Shown here: positions 3,801 through 21,243 of the stretch, piece after piece
Layout: each line of letters starts with the position of its first letter
How positions within the stretch are numbered: the first letter of the stretch is position 1
Position numbers and translations under genes: made by a program
The notes under the pieces: generated by a model
Told to the model about the DNA's origin: nothing
Seen by the model: the letters and a program-made list of their open reading frames with translations, nothing else
Database searches by the model: none
Source of the DNA: Saprospiraceae bacterium
Lineage (GTDB): Bacteria; Bacteroidota; Bacteroidia; Chitinophagales; Saprospiraceae
Direction: 5' to 3'
DNA: 37,223 nt
Assembly: GCA_020630735.1 (NCBI GenBank)
Contig: JAHDIP010000034.1
Coordinates: forward strand, 1 to 37,223

Positions 3801-4347
3801 AAATTTTTCAGACGAAGGAATGTATAGCGATACCTTAGTCAACTGGTTAGGTTGTGATAGTATCTTAACCATAGAATTTTCTCTACTGGAGTTACCTCTT
3901 GTTAACCTTGGAGCAGATACCACAATCTGTGAAGGTGAGATACTCGAACTAAGCACCAATACGAACGGCAGCTACGAGTGGAATACTGGTGCTACTACTT
4001 CTAGTATCGATATCTCCGAATCGGGTGAATATACTCTAAGTATTACAGATGAGTTTGGTTGTGTATCCACAGATGCCATACAAGTAACTGTTGAAATCTG
4101 TACCAATCAAGAAGAGGTTTCTGTTTTATCAAATATCTCCATTTATCCTAATCCTACTTCGGGTACTTTTTTTATAGAAAGTTCTGAATTTGTTGATCTT
4201 AAAATTTATAATCTCCTCGGACAAGAGATCGAAGCAAGATCATTTGCAAACCAACAAGAAATATATTTGAAGAATCAAGGTGTTTATTATCTTTATTTTT
4301 CTAACCAGAAAGAACAGCGTAAATTAATGAAACTAATTGTACAGTAA
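847..4347 (+). CDS. Secreted Ycf48/BNR-type beta-propeller protein with T9SS sorting domain
   Basis: The start is placed at ATG 847 because it gives a clean signal peptide (M-K-T-A-Y..., hydrophobic core, Gly-Gln cleavage site near residue 22); upstream TTG 823 and ATG 826 would add a polar leader. The protein is 1166 residues. Residues about 25-580 carry eleven copies of a [ST]-x-D-x-G-x-x-W motif about 45 residues apart, typical of Ycf48-like, BNR or sortilin propellers. An Ig-like stretch follows, then five copies (about 765-1005) of a 45-residue repeat with ICEG near its start and GCDSI near its end, a further Ig/PKD-like unit with ICEG, and a T9SS type A sorting domain starting at YPNPTSG. 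It is exported across the outer membrane and probably attached to the surface. Its ligand is unknown. The last 351 bp nearly duplicate the end of the next gene. Confidence 0.88.
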   Translation: MKTAYHYISLLIFLFPLLCSGQFSRVHQNPGGSFLEDIVSADENTIMFTGSNLHQFSFDRGESWFSYNLGGMFVKSAFFSSLKFGICVGNDGKFQKNTYCGSYQGWYPNEDTGINHDFLDVYFRTDFEGYVCGEGGTLIKTVDQTENWIEISTNTSNNLNGIWSINDQTMIVCGDEGLIIMVDNNDNIISSQTIGTEHLNKVFFTNEQVGYVVGNQGSIYKTTDAANSWFPLTLNTTADILSVTFNNENHGIITGTDGAIFVTEDAGSTWTQSFVVTDDDDIRSAMFKNDQEAYAVAPTFVLYSSDGGHNWTRLTGQLTKLDFPTKERGYAIGWNGVGYKTTDAGQHWTALDFKTNAYFNDLHFINQDTGYVAGSNVIMRTEDGGESWTTLDHPSQSNIYGIHFTDYNHGVAVGYYRTLLYTNDGGITWEHSFNDNSSIFYSDVYFTSPLVGYHSSNIGRIYKTIDGGLNWAELTTNFTGTLGDFFFINENIGWVIGGGGIILKTTDAGENWTMLDSGLSDGLGGLFFFDENKGMVVGNNAEYLITFDGGLTWEDHTSGYSDYDHLFFTDEEHGYALSGGSVQAIGPYSNINYTTPICPGREISFNVFSPYHLDPSPSTVAYEITPFDDSFDNAITLGTTVVDSVGLIEFTFPKDLTEGLYKTRFVDVNDPTRFSFEKNVQIDKRPDISYTLVDSFLIASADLDVDFYWYSQDGIWETFAGSGDTLLLQEAGNYYLEAREDCCDAQTDWFSVTLCNGNFALNLYQQAEQICEGNALAIGANLYTEAGVYLDTLISTSGCDSILETTLSLLANSYETIQATICEGDPLQFGNYVCTENNCIVDTLINHLGCDSILQIEFTILPSDYTSLFVSACEGESITIGTNTYFDEGTYSDTLANIMGCDSIIETSLTHLNTSFEAISTEICEGESITVGTNLYTEEGIYLDTFTNTIGCDSIIETTLQVLNHSAMQLSYNICEGQVITINGQNFSDEGMYSDTLVNWLGCDSILTIEFSLLELPLVNLGADTTICEGEILELSTNTNGSYEWNTGATTSSIDISESGEYTLSITDEFGCVSTDAIQVTVEICTNQEEVSVLSNISIYPNPTSGTFFIESSEFVDLKIYNLLGQEIEARSFANQQEIYLKNQGVYYLYFSNQKEQRKLMKLIVQ
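3997..4347 (+). repeat. 351-bp direct repeat, copy 1 (sorting-module coding sequence)
   Basis: Bases 3997-4347 match 6315-6665 with a single difference (A at 4313, G at 6631, giving Glu versus Gly). Upstream, from 3901 to 3996, the copies still align but show about eleven differences. Beyond the stop codons they diverge within two bases. The repeat encodes the last 116 codons: most of an Ig/PKD-like unit plus the T9SS domain. Confidence 0.95.
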
Positions 4348-4463
4348 TGTTCTTCCTTAAACATTCTTAACATAAAAAACGATAACAGATTCCTTATTAG
4401 ATATCTAAATCATATAAAACTTAACTTTTCCAAAAAAAATTATTTACTTCAAAACACCAAATT

Positions 4464-6665
4464 ATGACAAACTTAAACACAAAATTCCTTTGTCTACTAA
4501 TGACTAAATTCGTTCTTCTTCTTTTCTTTGCAATCTTTATGAATCCAATAATAGCACAAATACAAATTGGAAATAATATAGCTGGGCAAAATACAGATGA
4601 CCGTTTCGGATCGTCAGTTGCTCTATCTACTGACGGAAATATCGTTGCTATAGGTAACCCATTCAATTTTAGTAATACTTCAGATGCAGGTTTTGTAAAA
4701 GTTTTTCAGTGGAGCAATGATGTATGGTCACAAATAGGAAACGATATTCTTGGTGAAGCACCAGAAGATCATTTTGGAACCACTGTTTCAATATCTGCAA
4801 ACGGGAATACGGTTGCTATTGGTGCACCTAATAATGATGGCAATGGTACAAATGCAGGGCACGTCAGAGTTTATAGATTAGTGAATAATGTTTGGATGCA
4901 AATGGGAACAGATTTAGATGGAGCAACACTAGAAGAACTAGCAGGCACTTCCATTTCTCTTTCTTCAGATGGAAATAGATTAGCTATTGGCGCTCCAGAT
5001 AATGGAGAAAATGGAACGATGGCTGGAGAAGTACGCATTTTTGATTTTGATGACGTACAAGAAGAATGGATACAAAAGGGAGATGATATTAATGGAGTAA
5101 CACAATTTATTGGTTTTGGAGGAGCAATTTCTCTTTCTTCAGATGGAAATAGAATTGCTGCTGGTGCAAGTGGTTATAATGGCAATGGCTTTAATTCGGG
5201 ACTCGTCCAAGTCTATGAATTCCTCAACAATCAGTGGACACAAATAGGATCAGATATCGTTGGTGAAGAAGCCTATGATGCAATAGGTCAATACCATAGT
5301 TCTATTTCATTATCTTCAGATGGAAACCGAATGGCGATTGGTGCAGCTTTCAATGACGGCAATGGTCAAGCTGCTGGTCATGTACGTATCTTTCAACTTA
5401 ACAACAATGATTGGGAACAAATAGGTGAGGATATAGATGGTGTCGCAGCAAACGACTTCTTAGGTTGGTCTGTCGCACTTTCAGCAAATGGAAACAAAAT
5501 AGCTATTGGAACTCCTTATAATGATGGAGATGGAACTTATTTCAATGTAGGTATGGTTCAACTATATGAGTATACTCAAAATGAATGGTTACAAGTAGGA
5601 GTCGATATATATGGAGATGCAGAGGGGGGAATTTTAGGAAATGCTGTTGCGATTTCTTCCAATGGAAATAAAATTGCTACTGGTGCACCAGGAGCAGCAG
5701 GTCTTGAGCCTGAAGCCGGTCATGTCAAAATATTTGAATTTCCTTGTAGTCCTACTGCTGAAGTTGACATAGTAGAAGCCTGTGAGACTTTTACATGGAT
5801 CGATGGAAATAATTATACAGAAAACAATAATACTGCTACCTTTACTTTTACTAATACTGCTGGTTGTGATAGTATCATCACCTTAGACCTTACAATTCTT
5901 AACAACTCTTCCAATAGCGATATTATCTCCGCATGCGAAACCTATACTTGGATCGATGGAAATGTCTACACAGAAAGTAATAACACAGCTACATTTACTT
6001 CTACCAATACTGCTGGTTGTGATAGTATTATCACTTTAGATCTTACGATTCTTAGTGACTCTTTCAGCAGTGATATTATCTCCGCATGCGAAACCTATAC
6101 TTGGATAGACGGAAACATCTACACAGAAAGCAATAATACTGCTATGTTTACTCTAGCTAATACTGCTGGTTGCGATAGTATCATTACCTTAGATCTTACA
6201 ATAACAGACCTACCCTTTGTTAACCTTGGAGCAGATACCACAATCTGTGAAGGAGACATCCTTCAACTAAGCACTAATACGAATGGCACTTACGAGTGGA
6301 ATACGGGTGCAACGACTTCTAGTATCGATATCTCCGAATCGGGTGAATATACTCTAAGTATTACAGATGAGTTTGGTTGTGTATCCACAGATGCCATACA
6401 AGTAACTGTTGAAATCTGTACCAATCAAGAAGAGGTTTCTGTTTTATCAAATATCTCCATTTATCCTAATCCTACTTCGGGTACTTTTTTTATAGAAAGT
6501 TCTGAATTTGTTGATCTTAAAATTTATAATCTCCTCGGACAAGAGATCGAAGCAAGATCATTTGCAAACCAACAAGAAATATATTTGAAGAATCAAGGTG
6601 TTTATTATCTTTATTTTTCTAACCAGAAAGGACAGCGTAAATTAATGAAACTAATTGTACAGTAA
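4464..6665 (+). CDS. Secreted FG-GAP-like beta-propeller protein with T9SS sorting domain
   Basis: This 733-residue protein has a signal peptide (hydrophobic stretch about 13-30 ending Ile-Ala-Gln); ATG 4500 is an alternative start that also keeps it. Residues about 33-425 contain seven repeats of about 57 residues, each with an I-G-x-D-I-x-G segment, an SxxGNxxAIGAP segment and an AGxVxVF segment. That fits a seven-bladed FG-GAP or integrin-like propeller. Three 51-residue repeats follow, each beginning ACET[FY]TWIDG and containing AGCDSIITLDLTI (DNA period 153 bp from 5778). An Ig/PKD-like unit and a T9SS type A sorting domain end the protein. It lies 116 bp after the previous gene on the same strand. 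It is probably surface-exposed. Adhesion is plausible for the fold but not shown. Confidence 0.88.
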   Translation: MTNLNTKFLCLLMTKFVLLLFFAIFMNPIIAQIQIGNNIAGQNTDDRFGSSVALSTDGNIVAIGNPFNFSNTSDAGFVKVFQWSNDVWSQIGNDILGEAPEDHFGTTVSISANGNTVAIGAPNNDGNGTNAGHVRVYRLVNNVWMQMGTDLDGATLEELAGTSISLSSDGNRLAIGAPDNGENGTMAGEVRIFDFDDVQEEWIQKGDDINGVTQFIGFGGAISLSSDGNRIAAGASGYNGNGFNSGLVQVYEFLNNQWTQIGSDIVGEEAYDAIGQYHSSISLSSDGNRMAIGAAFNDGNGQAAGHVRIFQLNNNDWEQIGEDIDGVAANDFLGWSVALSANGNKIAIGTPYNDGDGTYFNVGMVQLYEYTQNEWLQVGVDIYGDAEGGILGNAVAISSNGNKIATGAPGAAGLEPEAGHVKIFEFPCSPTAEVDIVEACETFTWIDGNNYTENNNTATFTFTNTAGCDSIITLDLTILNNSSNSDIISACETYTWIDGNVYTESNNTATFTSTNTAGCDSIITLDLTILSDSFSSDIISACETYTWIDGNIYTESNNTAMFTLANTAGCDSIITLDLTITDLPFVNLGADTTICEGDILQLSTNTNGTYEWNTGATTSSIDISESGEYTLSITDEFGCVSTDAIQVTVEICTNQEEVSVLSNISIYPNPTSGTFFIESSEFVDLKIYNLLGQEIEARSFANQQEIYLKNQGVYYLYFSNQKGQRKLMKLIVQ
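5778..6236 (+). repeat. Three tandem 153-bp coding repeats
   Basis: Units start at 5778, 5931 and 6084, each encoding 51 residues or close to it. Each has the ACET[FY]TWIDG opening and a GCDSI motif. DNA similarity is high, notably in the segments encoding AGCDSIITLDLTI, which points to recent tandem duplication. The cysteine pair in each unit could form a disulfide outside the cell. Confidence 0.8.
6315..6665 (+). repeat. 351-bp direct repeat, copy 2 (sorting-module coding sequence)
   Basis: This copy matches bases 3997-4347 at 350 of 351 positions and encodes the last 116 codons of the second propeller gene. The two copies lie 2318 bp apart in direct orientation, so recombination between them could delete or fuse the genes. 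Confidence 0.95.
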
Positions 6666-10365: not shown

Positions 10366-11610
10366 CTATTTGACTATCATAATTTTTCCATTCATCATTT
10401 TATTATTAGAAAGGATTTTATAAAAATAAATTCCTGAATCGAGATGGTCTACGGTTAAAGTATAATCCATACTATTGATGTTTTTCGTTTCTACTAAGGT
10501 ACCATCCAAGGTATAGAGTGCTAGTTCTTGCATTTCTGCTTGTGCACGAATTTGTACTTCGTTTGTAGCAGGGTTCGGAAATACTTGAATGCTTTTATCC
10601 TTAGCTAAATCTTTAGTTCCTACTGCAAAATCTTGACAACCTGTTGCTACTAAATTTTCATAGCTCCACAAGTTATTGCGAGCAGGCAATTGCAGCGCAG
10701 CTAACATTCTATCAACCTGACCTTGGGTAAACATCTTTTTACAATCGTGATTGTAGTCCATAAAATTTGATCCATTGGTCTGTACATCACAACTAAAATC
10801 GTTGTTGTTACAACCTTGTAATTCTATTCCACTACCCAATGTCAAAGGAGTATCTTTTACATAATCGCCATCACCATTACAACCAAATTCGAATGTATGT
10901 CGAAGATTCAACCAATGCCCTGCCTCATGAGAACAGACAGATGCCCAATCCTGACCTTCATCTAATTCGGAATGTTCACCATAGCCCCATCGGATAGAAC
11001 TATAAAAAATACCATCCGTATTATTGAGTACATTTGCCTCACTAGGATAATAGGCATATGCTGTAAAATCGGATGGCGCACCGTTTGTATATTTTGGAAA
11101 GTAAATATTCAAATATTTTCGATTGTCCCAAGCATGTTGAAAAAGATTTCCTTGGTTCAACATAGCTGATGGATCGTCATAATAATTTATACCTGTTGTT
11201 GGGTTTCCATCAGGATCTATTGTAGCTAGACAAAAGGTAATATCTAAAGTACCTTTTATAGGATCAAAAGCAGGGTCTATAGTTTCCCAACCATCATTCA
11301 ATCCATTAAAATCATTATTCAATACTTCTAGACCAGATAAGGCTTGTTCCATTCCCATCATACCATCATCCCCGTCATGAAAGACGTGCATGACTACAGG
11401 AATGACATATTCGCTAGTCGGGTCTCTTTGATCTTTGTGCTTCAAAAAATCTGCAATAAATTTTTCATTTTCTTTCAATTCCTCTTCAATGTTAGGATTA
11501 TTAATAGACATTCGTTCTACTATCGCTTCATAAGAGCAAGGTAGTTGAGTTTGTCCGTACAAAAAAGAAAAAGAGAATAGTAGAAAAAGGAAAGTTATTT
11601 TGTTTTTCAT
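10366..11610 (-). CDS. Secreted M43-family zinc metalloprotease with T9SS sorting domain
   Basis: The start is set at ATG 11610 (or ATG 11616, two codons upstream), giving the signal peptide M-K-N-K-I-T-F-L-F-L-L ... Tyr-Gly-Gln. The reading frame stays open to 11721 but that overlaps the divergent gene. The mature protein has the extended zinc motif HEAGHWLNLRH (about 228-238) and the Met-turn NFMDY (about 282-286) of the M43 pappalysin/cytophagalysin family, with paired cysteines around the site. A T9SS type A sorting domain starts at VFPNPAT. It is an endopeptidase exported to the surface or medium. The substrate is unknown. At 414 residues it has the usual minimal catalytic plus sorting layout. 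It diverges from the DUF1761 gene. Confidence 0.9.
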   Translation of the reverse strand: MKNKITFLFLLFSFSFLYGQTQLPCSYEAIVERMSINNPNIEEELKENEKFIADFLKHKDQRDPTSEYVIPVVMHVFHDGDDGMMGMEQALSGLEVLNNDFNGLNDGWETIDPAFDPIKGTLDITFCLATIDPDGNPTTGINYYDDPSAMLNQGNLFQHAWDNRKYLNIYFPKYTNGAPSDFTAYAYYPSEANVLNNTDGIFYSSIRWGYGEHSELDEGQDWASVCSHEAGHWLNLRHTFEFGCNGDGDYVKDTPLTLGSGIELQGCNNNDFSCDVQTNGSNFMDYNHDCKKMFTQGQVDRMLAALQLPARNNLWSYENLVATGCQDFAVGTKDLAKDKSIQVFPNPATNEVQIRAQAEMQELALYTLDGTLVETKNINSMDYTLTVDHLDSGIYFYKILSNNKMMNGKIMIVK

Positions 11611-11719
11611 AATCATTAGCTTTTTATTTGAGTAATTGTTTCTCTTGTAAGATATTATTTTTTTGACAAAAATGTAAAACCAATCCAAACAAAAACTGTT
11701 ACAAAGACAAAGACTTGAC

Positions 11720-12205
11720 ATGAATTTAAACTATACTGCCTTTTTTCTCATTTCATTTATTCCCTTATTAATTGCTGCATTTTGGTATCATCCCAATTCG
11801 CCAATGATGCGTTGGTCGAAAGTAGAGGGCTTCGTGAAACCTTCATCTTTAAGTCCGCTTAAATTATTACTAGCTTTTATATTGAGCTTTATCTTGGTAT
11901 ATGGCTATATCAATTTGGTGATTCACCAGATGGGATTTTACGAATTATTTTTTACAGATATTATGCTAGGTAATGAGACTTCAAAACAAGTCGTAGAAGA
12001 TTTTTTAGCAAAGTATGGACAAAAACATCGACACTTTGGGCATGGCGTTTTTCATGGTGCCATCAATGCGTTTGTATTTGCATTACCCTTTGTAAGTCTT
12101 CATGTCTTGTTGGAAAATAAATCAAGTCGTTTTTTAATTCTTCATCTTTCCTATTGGCTAGTCACTAGTATGATTATTGGAGGATTGATTTCAGAATTTG
12201 TGTAA
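11720..12205 (+). CDS. DUF1761 family integral membrane protein
   Basis: This 161-residue protein has four predicted membrane segments (about 5-22, 48-68, 113-130 and 138-157). It has the family pattern of an F-W-Y-x-P box after the first segment, a long polar stretch, and an H-G-x-F-H-G motif before the third segment, as I recall for DUF1761 proteins. The biochemical role of the family is not established. The gene diverges from the M43 protease gene (about 110 bp between starts). Its stop codon abuts a perfect 30-bp bidirectional terminator shared with the convergent lysyl oxidase gene. Confidence 0.75.
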   Translation: MNLNYTAFFLISFIPLLIAAFWYHPNSPMMRWSKVEGFVKPSSLSPLKLLLAFILSFILVYGYINLVIHQMGFYELFFTDIMLGNETSKQVVEDFLAKYGQKHRHFGHGVFHGAINAFVFALPFVSLHVLLENKSSRFLILHLSYWLVTSMIIGGLISEFV

Positions 12206-12268
12206 AAATTTTGTAGAAAAAAAACGGCTTGCAGGAATCTGCAAGCCGTTTTTTTTCTACAAAATTTT
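12205..12268. terminator. Bidirectional intrinsic terminator, 30-bp perfect stem
   Basis: Bases 12205-12234 are the exact reverse complement of 12239-12268 with a 4-nt loop GAAT. The GC core ACGGCTTGCAG is flanked by an A8 run on one side and a T8 run on the other, so it gives a hairpin plus U-tract on both strands. It lies between the convergent DUF1761 and lysyl oxidase genes and overlaps the final base of the DUF1761 stop codon. Confidence 0.92.
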
Positions 12269-12282
12269 CAGTAATTAATTTC

Positions 12283-15243
12283 TTAAAAAACCTTTACAAA
12301 ACGTTGTGTTACTTTTTCATCATTTTCGAAAATGATATCTAAATAATAAACGCCTTCTGGTAAGTTAGAAATATCTAATTGAGTTGTTATACCATCAACC
12401 AGTATGGTTTGCATTACTTTACCAGTAATCGTACTGACTCGCATTTCTGTAGGTTTGCTTTCTAGAACACTTATATTAAGTACATCCTTAGCTGGATTTG
12501 GACTAAGACTTATTCCATAATCAACACCTTTTGTTTTAAAGCTTTGTTCTTCGTCTTCTTCTACAAATGTTGCTCCAGTAATAAATTCATCTTTATCATT
12601 CCAATTCGTCCAACCACCTGGACATTTTGATTTTACTTTAAATTTATAGGTAGCACCTGCTTGTAATCCAGAAATTGTAGCCGAGTTGGTGTTGACATAA
12701 ACTTCATCCCAAATAGACGATCCAGATCTGCGATAACCAACTTTGTATTTAATGGCATCAGAAACAGCAGGCCATGTTATAGTAGCCGTTGACATTGTAG
12801 TAGTTAATGTACTACCTATTGCAGGGCGATCACATAAGTCAGCAGTAGTTGTAAATGTTTGTGTAGGAGACCATACAGAATTACGTCCTCCAGAACAGAC
12901 TGTTTTTACACTATACTGATAAGTTGTATTGTTCATCAATCCATTTATAAAACGATAAGTATTATAAGCATTTAGCTCTGACCAAGGTGCTCCTACTCCA
13001 CTTACTCTTAAGCGTACTTTATATTTTTCTGCACCAGCTCTTGGCTCCCATAACACTTTTACCACCTTACCTCCAATTACATCAGTACTAACCATTGCTG
13101 GTTCTTCGCATGCAGTTAACATACAAGCATTATTTGCATCTACTTGTGTAGCTACTTGCTCTATAAAATCAGGGCCTGATACTACATCTATTACTTCGCT
13201 GATACAAAATTCTGAATCAATATTAAGATAGTTTATTCTACAAAGTGGTTGTACAGTATTCGATTTTACGATAGTAGAATCTTCATACGAAATACCAATC
13301 ACCATTCCATCAGTCAAACTTGCACTTGGCGAAATAGTATAATCACCAGTATTCACTAAATTAGTAACAGAAGCAATCGATACGCCTGACATTTTGAACT
13401 GATAGGCATTTACTCTTACAGTAGGATTTAGTATTCCGATGTCGATTGTATTATTATCAAAATCGGCACCAATAATACTTAAGGTTACCATATCATTTGG
13501 ATTATAAACACCATCTGGAAAATTACAGTGATCATGTGCACCTGCCCCATTATGGGCATGAGCATTACCAAAATTAAGACAACTAGCCAGTAAGGAAGCA
13601 TCGTATACCGTTATAGCATTATCTGCATTTAAGTCGTTACAAGATGTTGGGCTAATATCGTTTCCTAAAATATCTGCAACGTATTGTTGAGCATCTGTCA
13701 TCTCTTGTGCACCACTTGCATTCAAATCACCTCTTACTAAAGGACCACCACAAACACCTTCACAATCAGGTTGAGCAGAACCATAAGGCGTACCAGCACA
13801 ATCAACATAAGGATCACAATTGGGGTCTAAACTAATTTGTAGACCAGAAGTACGATCGATAATCACACAAACTTGTGCCCAGTTATTCGTCGTATCTTTT
13901 TCTAAATTTCCATTTGCATCTGGAGAGTTATCCCAGTTTACACGTGTTACGAATGTATAACGACCATCCTCAACATCTGTAATATCTATCCATTGACAAT
14001 CTAAGCCACTACTATAGGTATCTTCGCAATTGGCAGAGATTCCCATATTACTACAAGAATATTGTGCATTACCACCACCATCACAACTCAGATCTAATAC
14101 ACAAAATCCATTTTTAAATCCGACAGGAATTTCGGTACCATCATCACCAAATAAAATATACTCTGCATAACCTACATAGTGATAATGATTATGACAGTTA
14201 TCATAAGTAAACTGTGTTGCATCTCCACTTGAAGGTGAGCCAATAAAATAATCAAGCTCACCAATATTTGCTATTCGTGTCGTAAAACGGATAATATCAC
14301 GTTGACCATAACCACCGATGCATCCTTCTGAAATAGCACAAGCATCTGTATTATTGTAGGTCGTTAGATAGATAGATGATTCTAAAGCACCTTGACTAAT
14401 TACTAAATCGGGTCCTTGTGGACAATTAGGATCGCCTTGTGCAATACAAGATCCATCATCAATAGTAGCTAAAGGATTAAAGTTACAAGAGTTTGGGTCT
14501 GTACAACCAGAAACCGCTCCTATATATGATAGTTCCCAGTCGATAGCTCCACTACAACTTGCAGAGGCATCGCCAATACGAATAAGGTAAGTAACACCTT
14601 GATCAAAATAACCTTCTAAGTATGCTTGAGTACCGCAATTATTAGAGTTATCGTTGTAGAATAAAGTTCCATCATTGCCTTCATTTATCGAAGCGGGATT
14701 ACAATCGCCATACACCCAAATTTTAGTATCACAATTATTATTACAAGCAGATATTCCATAAGTACCAACTTGAGCTGGTGTAAATGCATACCATATATTT
14801 CTAGTAGCTGCGGTATGTATTCCTTCAGACATGGGAATAGCAGTAGTACATGATTCTCCCGAGCCACAATTAAAATCAGTCGATTCATAATTAGTGTAAG
14901 TACCACCAGATGCTATAATAGTCCCATTACTCATTACGCTATAAGAACCATCTCCATACTGGCAACAAATACCATCACCAAAACCATCAAGCATTGTAAA
15001 AGTTAAACAAGAATTTGGTACACAAACTGTTGTGTCATAGCTTTCATTATTGCCATAAGTATTTTGGAAAACCTGTGCATAGATATTACCATCAATATCT
15101 GTAACTTGCCAATATACTTCGGCACCAAACTGGTCAGTTTTTATTGATATCTCTAAAGGAATCTCATTGCTTGCACAATTTTGAGCATTGATGTTGACAA
15201 TAAAACAACAACACAACAACATGGGGTAAAATAAAAATCTCAT
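12283..15243 (-). CDS. Secreted multidomain lysyl oxidase with dockerin-like, cohesin-like, two Fn3 and T9SS domains
   Basis: ATG 15243 is chosen because it starts a signal peptide (M-R-F-L-F-Y ... Asn-Ala-Gln); the open frame to 15309 adds only a leader. In this 986-residue numbering: a beta domain (about 22-125), a CUB/PPC-like domain (about 130-243), a GCTDPNSCN calcium-type repeat (about 246-266), a lysyl oxidase domain (about 276-462), a dockerin-like unit with two D-x-N loops (about 504-560), a cohesin-like beta domain (about 575-700), Fn3 (713-798), Fn3 (803-890) and a T9SS type A domain (908-986, SPNPA). The lysyl oxidase part has the copper motif HNHYH (His351, 353, 355), Lys377 and Tyr410, matching human LOX Lys320 and Tyr355, and the signature DCQWIDITDV. 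It should oxidise peptidyl lysine, or other primary amines, to aldehyde outside the cell. Confidence 0.88.
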   Translation of the reverse strand: MRFLFYPMLLCCCFIVNINAQNCASNEIPLEISIKTDQFGAEVYWQVTDIDGNIYAQVFQNTYGNNESYDTTVCVPNSCLTFTMLDGFGDGICCQYGDGSYSVMSNGTIIASGGTYTNYESTDFNCGSGESCTTAIPMSEGIHTAATRNIWYAFTPAQVGTYGISACNNNCDTKIWVYGDCNPASINEGNDGTLFYNDNSNNCGTQAYLEGYFDQGVTYLIRIGDASASCSGAIDWELSYIGAVSGCTDPNSCNFNPLATIDDGSCIAQGDPNCPQGPDLVISQGALESSIYLTTYNNTDACAISEGCIGGYGQRDIIRFTTRIANIGELDYFIGSPSSGDATQFTYDNCHNHYHYVGYAEYILFGDDGTEIPVGFKNGFCVLDLSCDGGGNAQYSCSNMGISANCEDTYSSGLDCQWIDITDVEDGRYTFVTRVNWDNSPDANGNLEKDTTNNWAQVCVIIDRTSGLQISLDPNCDPYVDCAGTPYGSAQPDCEGVCGGPLVRGDLNASGAQEMTDAQQYVADILGNDISPTSCNDLNADNAITVYDASLLASCLNFGNAHAHNGAGAHDHCNFPDGVYNPNDMVTLSIIGADFDNNTIDIGILNPTVRVNAYQFKMSGVSIASVTNLVNTGDYTISPSASLTDGMVIGISYEDSTIVKSNTVQPLCRINYLNIDSEFCISEVIDVVSGPDFIEQVATQVDANNACMLTACEEPAMVSTDVIGGKVVKVLWEPRAGAEKYKVRLRVSGVGAPWSELNAYNTYRFINGLMNNTTYQYSVKTVCSGGRNSVWSPTQTFTTTADLCDRPAIGSTLTTTMSTATITWPAVSDAIKYKVGYRRSGSSIWDEVYVNTNSATISGLQAGATYKFKVKSKCPGGWTNWNDKDEFITGATFVEEDEEQSFKTKGVDYGISLSPNPAKDVLNISVLESKPTEMRVSTITGKVMQTILVDGITTQLDISNLPEGVYYLDIIFENDEKVTQRFVKVF

Positions 15244-15309
15244 TTTGTTTATTATTTGGTGAAAAAATTGGAAAGTGGATATTTCCATATAAAAAAGTAG
15301 ATAGGCCAT

Positions 15310-19965: not shown

Positions 19966-21243
19966 ATGAGAAAGGGACTTTTTACCATTCAACTTCTGCT
20001 ACTAAGTGCTTCTAGTATTTTTGCACAGCACCAATGTGGTCATGCCGCTATTCAGCATCGTATACAACAGCAATACCCTGCTTACTATACCGCAATACAA
20101 GCACTCTATGAAGGTGCTCAACAACTTACTACTTATCGAGATGATGAAATTTACACCATCCCCATAGTCGTTCATGTGGTATGGAATAAGCAAGAAGAAA
20201 ATATTTCTGATGCTCAAATCCAAGAGCAACTAGTTGTTTTAAATCGGGCTTTTAGAAGAAGAATTCAAAATAAAGATAAGGTACGTGGTATTTTTCGTGG
20301 AGTCGTTGGCGATCCAAGAATAGAATTTCAGATTGATAAAATTATCCGTGTACAAACAAATAGTACTTTTAAAACTCAGATCGACTTGAATAATCTCCAA
20401 ATACTTTATCCTGACAATGTAAAAGTAACGAGCCTTGGGGGAAGTGATCCTTGGGACACTGAGCAATACTTAAATATCTGGGTATGCAAAATTGAAGATG
20501 ATAATCTTCTAGGCTACTCCTATCCTCCTGCTATGATGGATAATTGGCCTGAGCATAGTCAGTCTTTTCCTAAAGAGTATGACGGTATTGTAGTCAACTA
20601 TAAAGCCTTTGGTCAGTATCTTTCTCCTTTCATCACCAGCCTAGGCGACACTTTACAGTTGGAAGGAAAAGCGCTAGTACATGAGGTAGGGCATTACCTC
20701 GGGCTCCGACATACTTGGGGTGACAGTGAACTTTTTGTCAATGATTGTGCACTCGATGATGGCTTAACGGATACTCCTAGCATGCATGGTCCTTCTAGTA
20801 CTTGTGATTTTGAAAAAAATAGTTGTATTGATGATGCATTTGATTTTCCTGATATGGTCGAAAACTATATGGACTATACAGTAGATGAGTGTCGTACTAG
20901 CTTCACCAAACAACAAATTGCGCTTATGCGATATGTACTCACTAATAGACGACAGTACTTACGTGCAAGCAAGCTTGAAATGAATACAACTAATGACATT
21001 ATTATTTATCCAAACCCTACTGCTAAATTTTGCTTCATTTATACACAACCTTATCAAAACCCAATCTACAAAATAAGAGTAAAATCAATAACTGGCGCTC
21101 CTGTCAACATCACCATTACAGATGTAATTGGCGATAATAGTAACTATAAATTGGATGTTTCTACCTTAGCTAATGGCACCTATGTCGTCGAATGTTTTAC
21201 ACTGAATGATCGATTTACAAAACTTATTGTAGTGGCGAAATAA
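19966..21243 (+). CDS. Secreted M43-family zinc metalloprotease with T9SS sorting domain (second copy)
   Basis: This 425-residue protein starts with a signal peptide (MRKGLFTIQLLLLSASSIFAQ, first cut after Ala-Gln at 20-21). The catalytic region has HEVGHYLGLRH (239-249) and Met-turn YMDY (301-304), diagnostic of M43 cytophagalysin/pappalysin proteases. The IPIVVHVVW strand (65-73) is also typical. A T9SS type A domain starts at IYPNPTAK (about 346). It is clearly related to the first M43 protease at 10366-11610 but diverged, so the two are not a recent duplication. It is a single gene convergent with the sugar transferase gene. Substrate unknown. Confidence 0.9.
   Translation: MRKGLFTIQLLLLSASSIFAQHQCGHAAIQHRIQQQYPAYYTAIQALYEGAQQLTTYRDDEIYTIPIVVHVVWNKQEENISDAQIQEQLVVLNRAFRRRIQNKDKVRGIFRGVVGDPRIEFQIDKIIRVQTNSTFKTQIDLNNLQILYPDNVKVTSLGGSDPWDTEQYLNIWVCKIEDDNLLGYSYPPAMMDNWPEHSQSFPKEYDGIVVNYKAFGQYLSPFITSLGDTLQLEGKALVHEVGHYLGLRHTWGDSELFVNDCALDDGLTDTPSMHGPSSTCDFEKNSCIDDAFDFPDMVENYMDYTVDECRTSFTKQQIALMRYVLTNRRQYLRASKLEMNTTNDIIIYPNPTAKFCFIYTQPYQNPIYKIRVKSITGAPVNITITDVIGDNSNYKLDVSTLANGTYVVECFTLNDRFTKLIVVAK

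Follow-up and report, generated by a model that had tools for sequence, protein, structure and literature searches.

A dockerin–cohesin module is the usual companion of a group of lysyl oxidases in the class Bacteroidia

Lysyl oxidases (LOX) are copper enzymes with a lysine tyrosylquinone (LTQ) cofactor that turn amines into aldehydes; in animals they serve to cross-link collagen. What would a bacterium do with such an enzyme built into a long multidomain chain, and is a chain of this kind peculiar to its bearer? The question is raised by a 37,223-nucleotide stretch of DNA from a Saprospiraceae bacterium (GenBank assembly GCA_020630735.1, contig JAHDIP010000034.1, positions 1 to 37,223, forward strand; hereafter, the window), in which one gene encodes a protein with a central LOX domain, followed by dockerin-like and cohesin-like parts and by a sorting domain of the type IX secretion system (T9SS). 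A sequence-only reading of the gene had taken the fusion to be unusual and to suggest self- or partner-assembly and covalent cross-linking of a surface protein matrix. We find that a dockerin–cohesin module behind LOX is the usual layout in a wider group of LOX proteins, not a one-off.

The central domain matched the Pfam profile PF01186 over residues 279-457 with 108.5 bits (E 4.4e-31; cut-off 20.4), a significant match in the search that the sequence-only reading had proposed. When a profile of the LOX domain was compared with PDB sequences at E<=0.01, the sole match was human LOXL2 (5ze3; E 1.4e-34), to whose sequence 55 of 160 aligned residues were identical. In this alignment LOXL2 H626/H628/H630, K653, and Y689 fall onto H351/H353/H355, K377, and Y410, which confirms the HNHYH copper motif and the Lys377–Tyr410 pair, 33 residues apart, that had been picked out from the sequence. 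All eight LOXL2 cysteines within the aligned part fall on cysteines here; the fifth LOXL2 pair, Cys732-Cys746 (PMC9180022; statements from cited papers rest, here and below, on their accessible portions), lies outside it. An AlphaFold2 model of residues 266-722, made with 76 relatives, reached a predicted local distance difference test score (pLDDT) of 91.4 and a predicted template modeling score (pTM) of 0.87, and its LOX part superposed on LOXL2 5ze3 with Z 21.0 (root mean square deviation [rmsd] 3.1, 193 residues aligned, 32% identity). Profile, residues, and fold agree, and membership in the lysyl oxidase family is well supported. A large distance between the lysine and the tyrosine, which had been named as a possible refutation, cannot serve as one, because the two lie 16.6 angstrom apart in the precursor structure of LOXL2 (PMC9694262).

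The three histidines, the lysine, the tyrosine, and the eight cysteines are invariant in 77/77 close relatives (the window protein is the 78th row) and in 42/42 relatives taken class-wide. In LOXL2, the substitutions H626Q, H628Q, and H630Q abolish activity, and glutamine mutants of H623, H637, and H652 retain 21%, 72%, and 39% of kcat/Km (PMC9694262). The latter three positions are D348, E361, and F376 here; at that of H652, class-wide relatives have His in 10 of 42 and Phe in 30 of 42. The claim of complete catalytic residues therefore holds for the five essential ones and fails for the accessory set, which is incomplete because all three animal histidines are replaced.

To follow the architecture across genomes, we used one profile of the dockerin–cohesin module (A3) and one of the N-terminal domain pair that precedes LOX (A4). 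A first group of named loci comprises the 79 closest to the LOX profile among 522 confirmed candidates; as these were chosen by likeness, which favors this architecture, a sample of 247 genomes of the class Bacteroidia is the fairer test, although 11 of the 42 members fetched from it apparently recur among the named loci. The named loci hold 80 LOX open reading frames (ORFs), with A3 behind LOX in 80/80 and A4 also in front in 77/80, so the search for homologs with the same order of N-terminal pair, LOX, and dockerin–cohesin was successful. Across the class sample, PF01186 matched in 64/247 genomes and A3 in 39/247. We counted as strong the 45 PF01186 places of at least 86 bits, found in 37 genomes (scores then drop to 40 bits, and these weaker, divergent rows are uncounted): 44 of the 45 are followed by A3, in frame and 37-124 bases away. 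Conversely, 44 of the 46 A3 places lie directly behind LOX, and the remaining two score 34 and 22 bits; one of these two, in G082, has by eye a dockerin start, several cohesin-like repeats, and no LOX. The fusion is thus the usual architecture of this LOX group rather than the unusual combination it had seemed. Among 79 relatives whose C-terminus is complete, 76 have no more than 150 residues behind A3 (median 91), which leaves room for little beyond a tail. Named isolates among the carriers are Phaeodactylibacter luteus and Phaeodactylibacter xiamenensis.

The dockerin-like unit of the module was upheld. The window copy is weak against Dockerin_1 (PF00404), with 13-18 bits at a cut-off of 22.9 and 23.2 bits when scored with its frame neighbors; at E<=1, 12 of 14 LOX modules match, and the best dockerin match of the module profile in the PDB has E 0.0059. 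The aspartates of its calcium loops are conserved among close relatives (D506, D517, and D537 in 77/77, D548 in 76/77) and class-wide (D506 in 37/42, the other three in 42/42). The cohesin-like domain stood by predicted fold and failed by sequence: the cohesin profile PF00963 had no match in the protein (E<=0.1), in the 14 modules (E<=1), or at the locus in the genome scan. The model has a cohesin β-sandwich here (Z 11.2, rmsd 2.7, 112 residues aligned to 2jh2); ranks 2-28 of the fold comparison are cohesins or cohesin-like modules, and the first other fold has Z 9.1. The pTM of the model suggests that the LOX, dockerin, and cohesin-fold domains keep a fixed arrangement. Two calcium loops are shared with type I dockerins, and the cohesin fold, at Z about 11, with cellulosomal and noncellulosomal cohesins; unlike in those, dockerin and cohesin here adjoin in one chain, attached to an oxidase, and PF00963 does not match.

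The linker between dockerin and cohesin has at least three histidines in 70/77 close relatives (none in 3) and in 16/42 class-wide (none in 15). As a universal copper site the linker was rejected, because 15 of 42 class-wide members have no histidine there, and it is kept as a lineage feature only. The two fibronectin type III (Fn3) domains, read correctly from the start, score 43 bits in two stretches, above the Pfam cut-off; Fn3 is present in 1 of 15 aligned proteins, that of the window, and the pair is what sets it apart from the aligned relatives. The proposed T9SS sorting signal was likewise borne out, with 39-41 bits for Por_Secre_tail (above cut-off) and a type A tail also by NCBIfam. 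The genome search for T9SS covered SprA and returned a match of 2447 bits. The protein is most likely exported through the T9SS.

On this basis we think it probable that the protein is a LOX-family enzyme, a secreted copper/LTQ amine oxidase exported by the T9SS, whose products may cross-link surface or matrix proteins. Its family, key residues, domain order, conservation, and sorting domain are observed; what we infer concerns its activity, surface residence, substrate, and cross-linking, and the binding partner of its dockerin–cohesin module. Judging by its families, the pre-protein would exit via Sec and then the type IX system and remain at the cell surface or close to it. Copper at H351/H353/H355 would drive K377 and Y410 to form the LTQ cofactor by self-processing. 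This cofactor would then convert primary amines, lysine side chains being the likeliest, into aldehydes while freeing ammonia and hydrogen peroxide, and covalent cross-links among surface or matrix proteins could arise from these aldehydes. The dockerin and cohesin-fold module, a near-constant C-terminal companion, might position the enzyme, whether it acts as a rigid spacer or binds other surface proteins that bear dockerins or cohesins. Truncation and refolding rendered an archaeal LOX active, most so in the presence of copper (PMC6452851).

For the module itself, another account has a real chance, which we place somewhat short of even: dockerin–cohesin could be a C-terminal cassette that T9SS surface proteins of these bacteria have in common, a stabilizing spacer before the tail that does no docking. 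At Pfam E<=1, the genome yields 34 dockerin and 32 cohesin matches, with 20 other dockerin-then-cohesin pairs against one reverse pair and a gap of 226-289 bases in 19 of the 20. Seventeen C-termini of this kind (L146-L162; picked by cohesin-like and tail motifs) align with one another up to a sorting-tail-like end, and the fixed placement suggested by the pTM of 0.87 would also suit a spacer. One of the 17 was run against Pfam, where its cohesin was above cut-off; the tail reached 24.1 bits (cut-off 27) and the dockerin 16.8 bits (cut-off 22.9), both below. Weak dockerin or cohesin rows may be chance, because the same settings give matches in control genomes (PF00404 in 9/14, 2 above cut-off; PF00963 in 2/14, 1 above cut-off). 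On these counts the idea that the tandem belongs to LOX alone was lowered, and as a sign of LOX-specific assembly, the use made of it in the sequence-only reading, the tandem by itself is weak, given the 20 others in this genome. Against a common cassette stands the faint likeness of the LOX-type module to the general one: hhalign gave a local E of 0.0054 with a probability of 6.7%, over the cohesin part only, and a global probability of 0.2%. Moreover, A3 found two LOX places in this genome and nothing else, and among relatives one LOX place in each of five that bear LOX and none in four without PF01186. The LOX module has its own conserved make-up, given this faint likeness and the LOX-restricted profile, and seems to be a variant, reserved to LOX, of a cassette common in surface proteins, at best distantly related to it. 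Assembly could still take place, since the genome holds many candidate dockerin and cohesin partners.

For the enzyme as a whole, an active amine oxidase that does something other than cross-linking, drawing nitrogen from amines or making hydrogen peroxide against competitors or prey, is possible and rather unlikely, and it overlaps the cross-linking account. The archaeal LOX accepts numerous small amines, as well as some antibiotics, as substrates, and a role in nitrogen supply or competition is discussed for it (PMC6452851); lysine-poor secreted proteins would also offer few cross-link sites. Nonetheless, a chain that combines several domains of protein-binding type with a sorting tail and is conserved in many genomes would suit an enzyme fixed in place more than one that scavenges in solution, and matrix cross-linking would be the most natural use of a LOX so placed. 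We give very little credence to a decayed or noncatalytic LOX-fold binding protein. The replaced His623, His637, and His652 positions would agree with decay, but decay is not expected because the five essential residues and the cysteines are invariant in both sets of relatives.

Several results weigh against the favored account of this protein as a secreted amine oxidase that may cross-link. Its activity could be reduced, or supported in another way, because D348 and F376 occupy the positions at which the LOXL2 glutamine mutants keep 21% and 39%. Lysine targets on such T9SS proteins may be few: lysine makes up 0.9% of the core of the LOX protein and a median of 1.3% in 16 further T9SS-like proteins from the same loci, selected by tail motif. 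No conserved neighbor that points to a matrix emerged from the 79 loci, where the largest clusters of neighboring genes cover 9, 8, 7, and 7 loci. LOX can exist without dockerin–cohesin, as A3 is missing from 3 of the 19 strong ORFs that were fetched from the relatives set. Finally, LOX is rare in a sample of the phylum, with PF01186 in 4/198 genomes and the module in 2/198, all of them already in the class sample. As to the lysines, the Fn3 and tail part of the protein holds 19 of its 25, and lysine reaches 5.5% in one T9SS protein encoded in the window. Lysine avoidance as self-protection was rejected: LOX cores have a median of 1.0% versus 1.3%, and the core was the lower in only 9 of 16 pairs.

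A bolder version of the cross-linking account, which we regard as improbable, makes LOX–dockerin–cohesin a dedicated bacterial matrix-building unit. The dockerin would dock the cohesin of the next molecule or cohesin-armed adhesins such as a SprB-repeat protein, LOX would lock the array by lysine-derived cross-links, and the His-rich linker of Saprospiraceae-type members would capture copper. If so, bacteria would have a counterpart to the cross-linking of the extracellular matrix in animals. The same genome encodes a SprB-repeat protein of 2333 residues (L166:1009-8007, contig C23), in which about 20 SprB repeats are combined with three to four cohesins and a CHU_C tail; a PorP/SprF gene adjoins its gene. 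A cohesin-armed SprB-repeat protein of T9SS type is a possible dockerin partner.

How does this protein compare with lysyl oxidases already described? With animal LOXL2 and LOX (5ze3) it shares the fold, the three copper histidines, the LTQ lysine and tyrosine, and the eight aligned cysteines; unlike LOXL2, it has no equivalents of His623, His637, and His652, its lysine–tyrosine spacing is 33 rather than 36, and in place of SRCR domains it has dockerin–cohesin and a T9SS tail. LOX as such is known from Bacteroidetes, one of five bacterial clades with LOX according to Grau-Bove et al. 2015 (PMC4448552), who describe the first copper histidine as missing in bacterial LOX; it is absent here too, whereas the usual form here, a multi-part chain with a T9SS tail, contrasts with the LOX of that paper as far as its accessible part goes. 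Archaeal HTU-LOX is likewise a prokaryotic LOX with copper and LTQ residues and is active after refolding; it comes from another domain of life, and the accessible part of its report mentions no dockerin, cohesin, or T9SS tail (PMC6452851). Its authors term the properties and functions of prokaryotic LOX homologs enigmatic. New here is the conserved LOX–dockerin–cohesin unit, for which a literature search (supplements, most subscription papers, and protein databases lay outside it) found no earlier description. What had been an odd single protein becomes a defined LOX group whose companion module is fixed and occurs almost nowhere else; as the group includes named isolates, activity, surface location, dockerin–cohesin binding, and cross-linking can each be tested. 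If cross-linking proves true, covalent matrix building of the LOX type would not be confined to animals.

The features of the gene are collected in Table 1; residue numbers refer to the 986-residue version, with its start at 15243. An alternative in-frame start, the ATG at 15309, would give 1008 residues. By eye, the signal peptide reads naturally from the ATG at 15243, which suggests that start, and the Gln-Asn-Cys behind it would fit the Q-rule of Bacteroidetes (PMC5837995). The second N-terminal domain resembles the pre-peptidase or clostridial collagenase collagen-binding fold (Z 12.0, rmsd 2.4, 101 residues aligned to 5iku); this likeness to collagen-binding domains is one of predicted fold alone and implies no function. 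The first N-terminal domain is common: A4 matches 13 further places in the genome, none of them full-length.

Table 1. Coordinates of the LOX gene, of the parts of its product, and of the stem behind it (positions in the window)
Feature	Residues	Position	Strand	Basis
LOX-protein coding sequence, T9SS tail	986 aa	12283..15243	minus	ORF list; aligned with 14 relatives
Putative signal peptide, then Gln-Asn-Cys	about 1-20	15184..15243	minus	by-eye reading of sequence
N-terminal beta-domain pair	about 21-242	14518..15183	minus	model pLDDT 95.4
Cys repeat GCTDPNSCNFNPLATIDDGSC	246-266	14446..14508	minus	sequence, alignment
Lysyl oxidase catalytic domain	about 276-462	13858..14418	minus	PF01186 108 bits; LOXL2 5ze3 Z 21.0
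Copper motif HNHYH (LOXL2 H626/H628/H630)	H351/H353/H355	14179..14193	minus	LOXL2 alignment
LTQ lysine (LOXL2 K653)	K377	14113..14115	minus	LOXL2 alignment
LTQ tyrosine (LOXL2 Y689)	Y410	14014..14016	minus	LOXL2 alignment
Dockerin-like unit, two calcium F-hand loops	504-556	13576..13734	minus	D506-N508-S510-D517; D537-N539-D541-D548
Histidine-rich linker	557-573	13525..13575	minus	His counts in relatives
Cohesin-fold domain	about 574-712	13108..13524	minus	model fold, Z 11.2 to 2jh2
Two Fn3 domains, inserted relative to aligned relatives	about 724-890	12574..13074	minus	Pfam, alignment
T9SS type A sorting domain	915-986	12286..12501	minus	PF18962 and TIGR04183 above cut-off
Terminator-like 20-pair stem directly behind the LOX gene, ahead of the convergent gene 11720-12205		12213..12260	no strand	pattern scan alone

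The relatives set comprises 21 strong LOX places including that of the window, of which 19 others were fetched (G045:C18 excluded). The alignment took in 14 of 20 LOX ORFs and the window; L023, L024, L025, L027, L035, and L040 were excluded and scored separately, and among them L023 and L035 carry the full core and L040 is of a divergent type. Of the 77 close relatives, 76 entered A5 (L045 excluded) and 64 entered A6. The three strong ORFs without A3 (L024, L025, and L027) have an alternative architecture in which the LOX domain comes first, and one copy of it occurs among the three LOX genes of this genome (contig C351, where the ORF reaches the contig end). One relative carries a tandem pair of LOX–dockerin–cohesin genes (L101:1507-3909 and 4167-6563). 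A second, divergent LOX-like group (L019, L020, L021, L022, and rows below about 40 bits) consists mostly of proteins of 600-900 residues in which PF01186 is often restricted to the C-terminal part; the four that were read have HxHxH, KxxFC, and, by eye, a tyrosine in D-x-Y.

Around the LOX gene, a pattern scan for promoter-like sites gave no signal, with 10 observed against 18.4 expected. Two M43 (pappalysin-like) metallopeptidase genes with T9SS tails flank it in the window, at 10366-11721 and 19966-21243, and the window also encodes further T9SS-tailed proteins. Elsewhere, a gene resembling a sugar dehydrogenase of the pyrroloquinoline quinone (PQQ) type, identified by eye, forms a cluster in 8 of the 79 loci; in L053, L055, L088, L107, L111, and L120 it immediately follows LOX in the same orientation. 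A zinc carboxypeptidase-like gene, also recognized by eye, lies upstream of LOX on the opposite strand in 7 loci.

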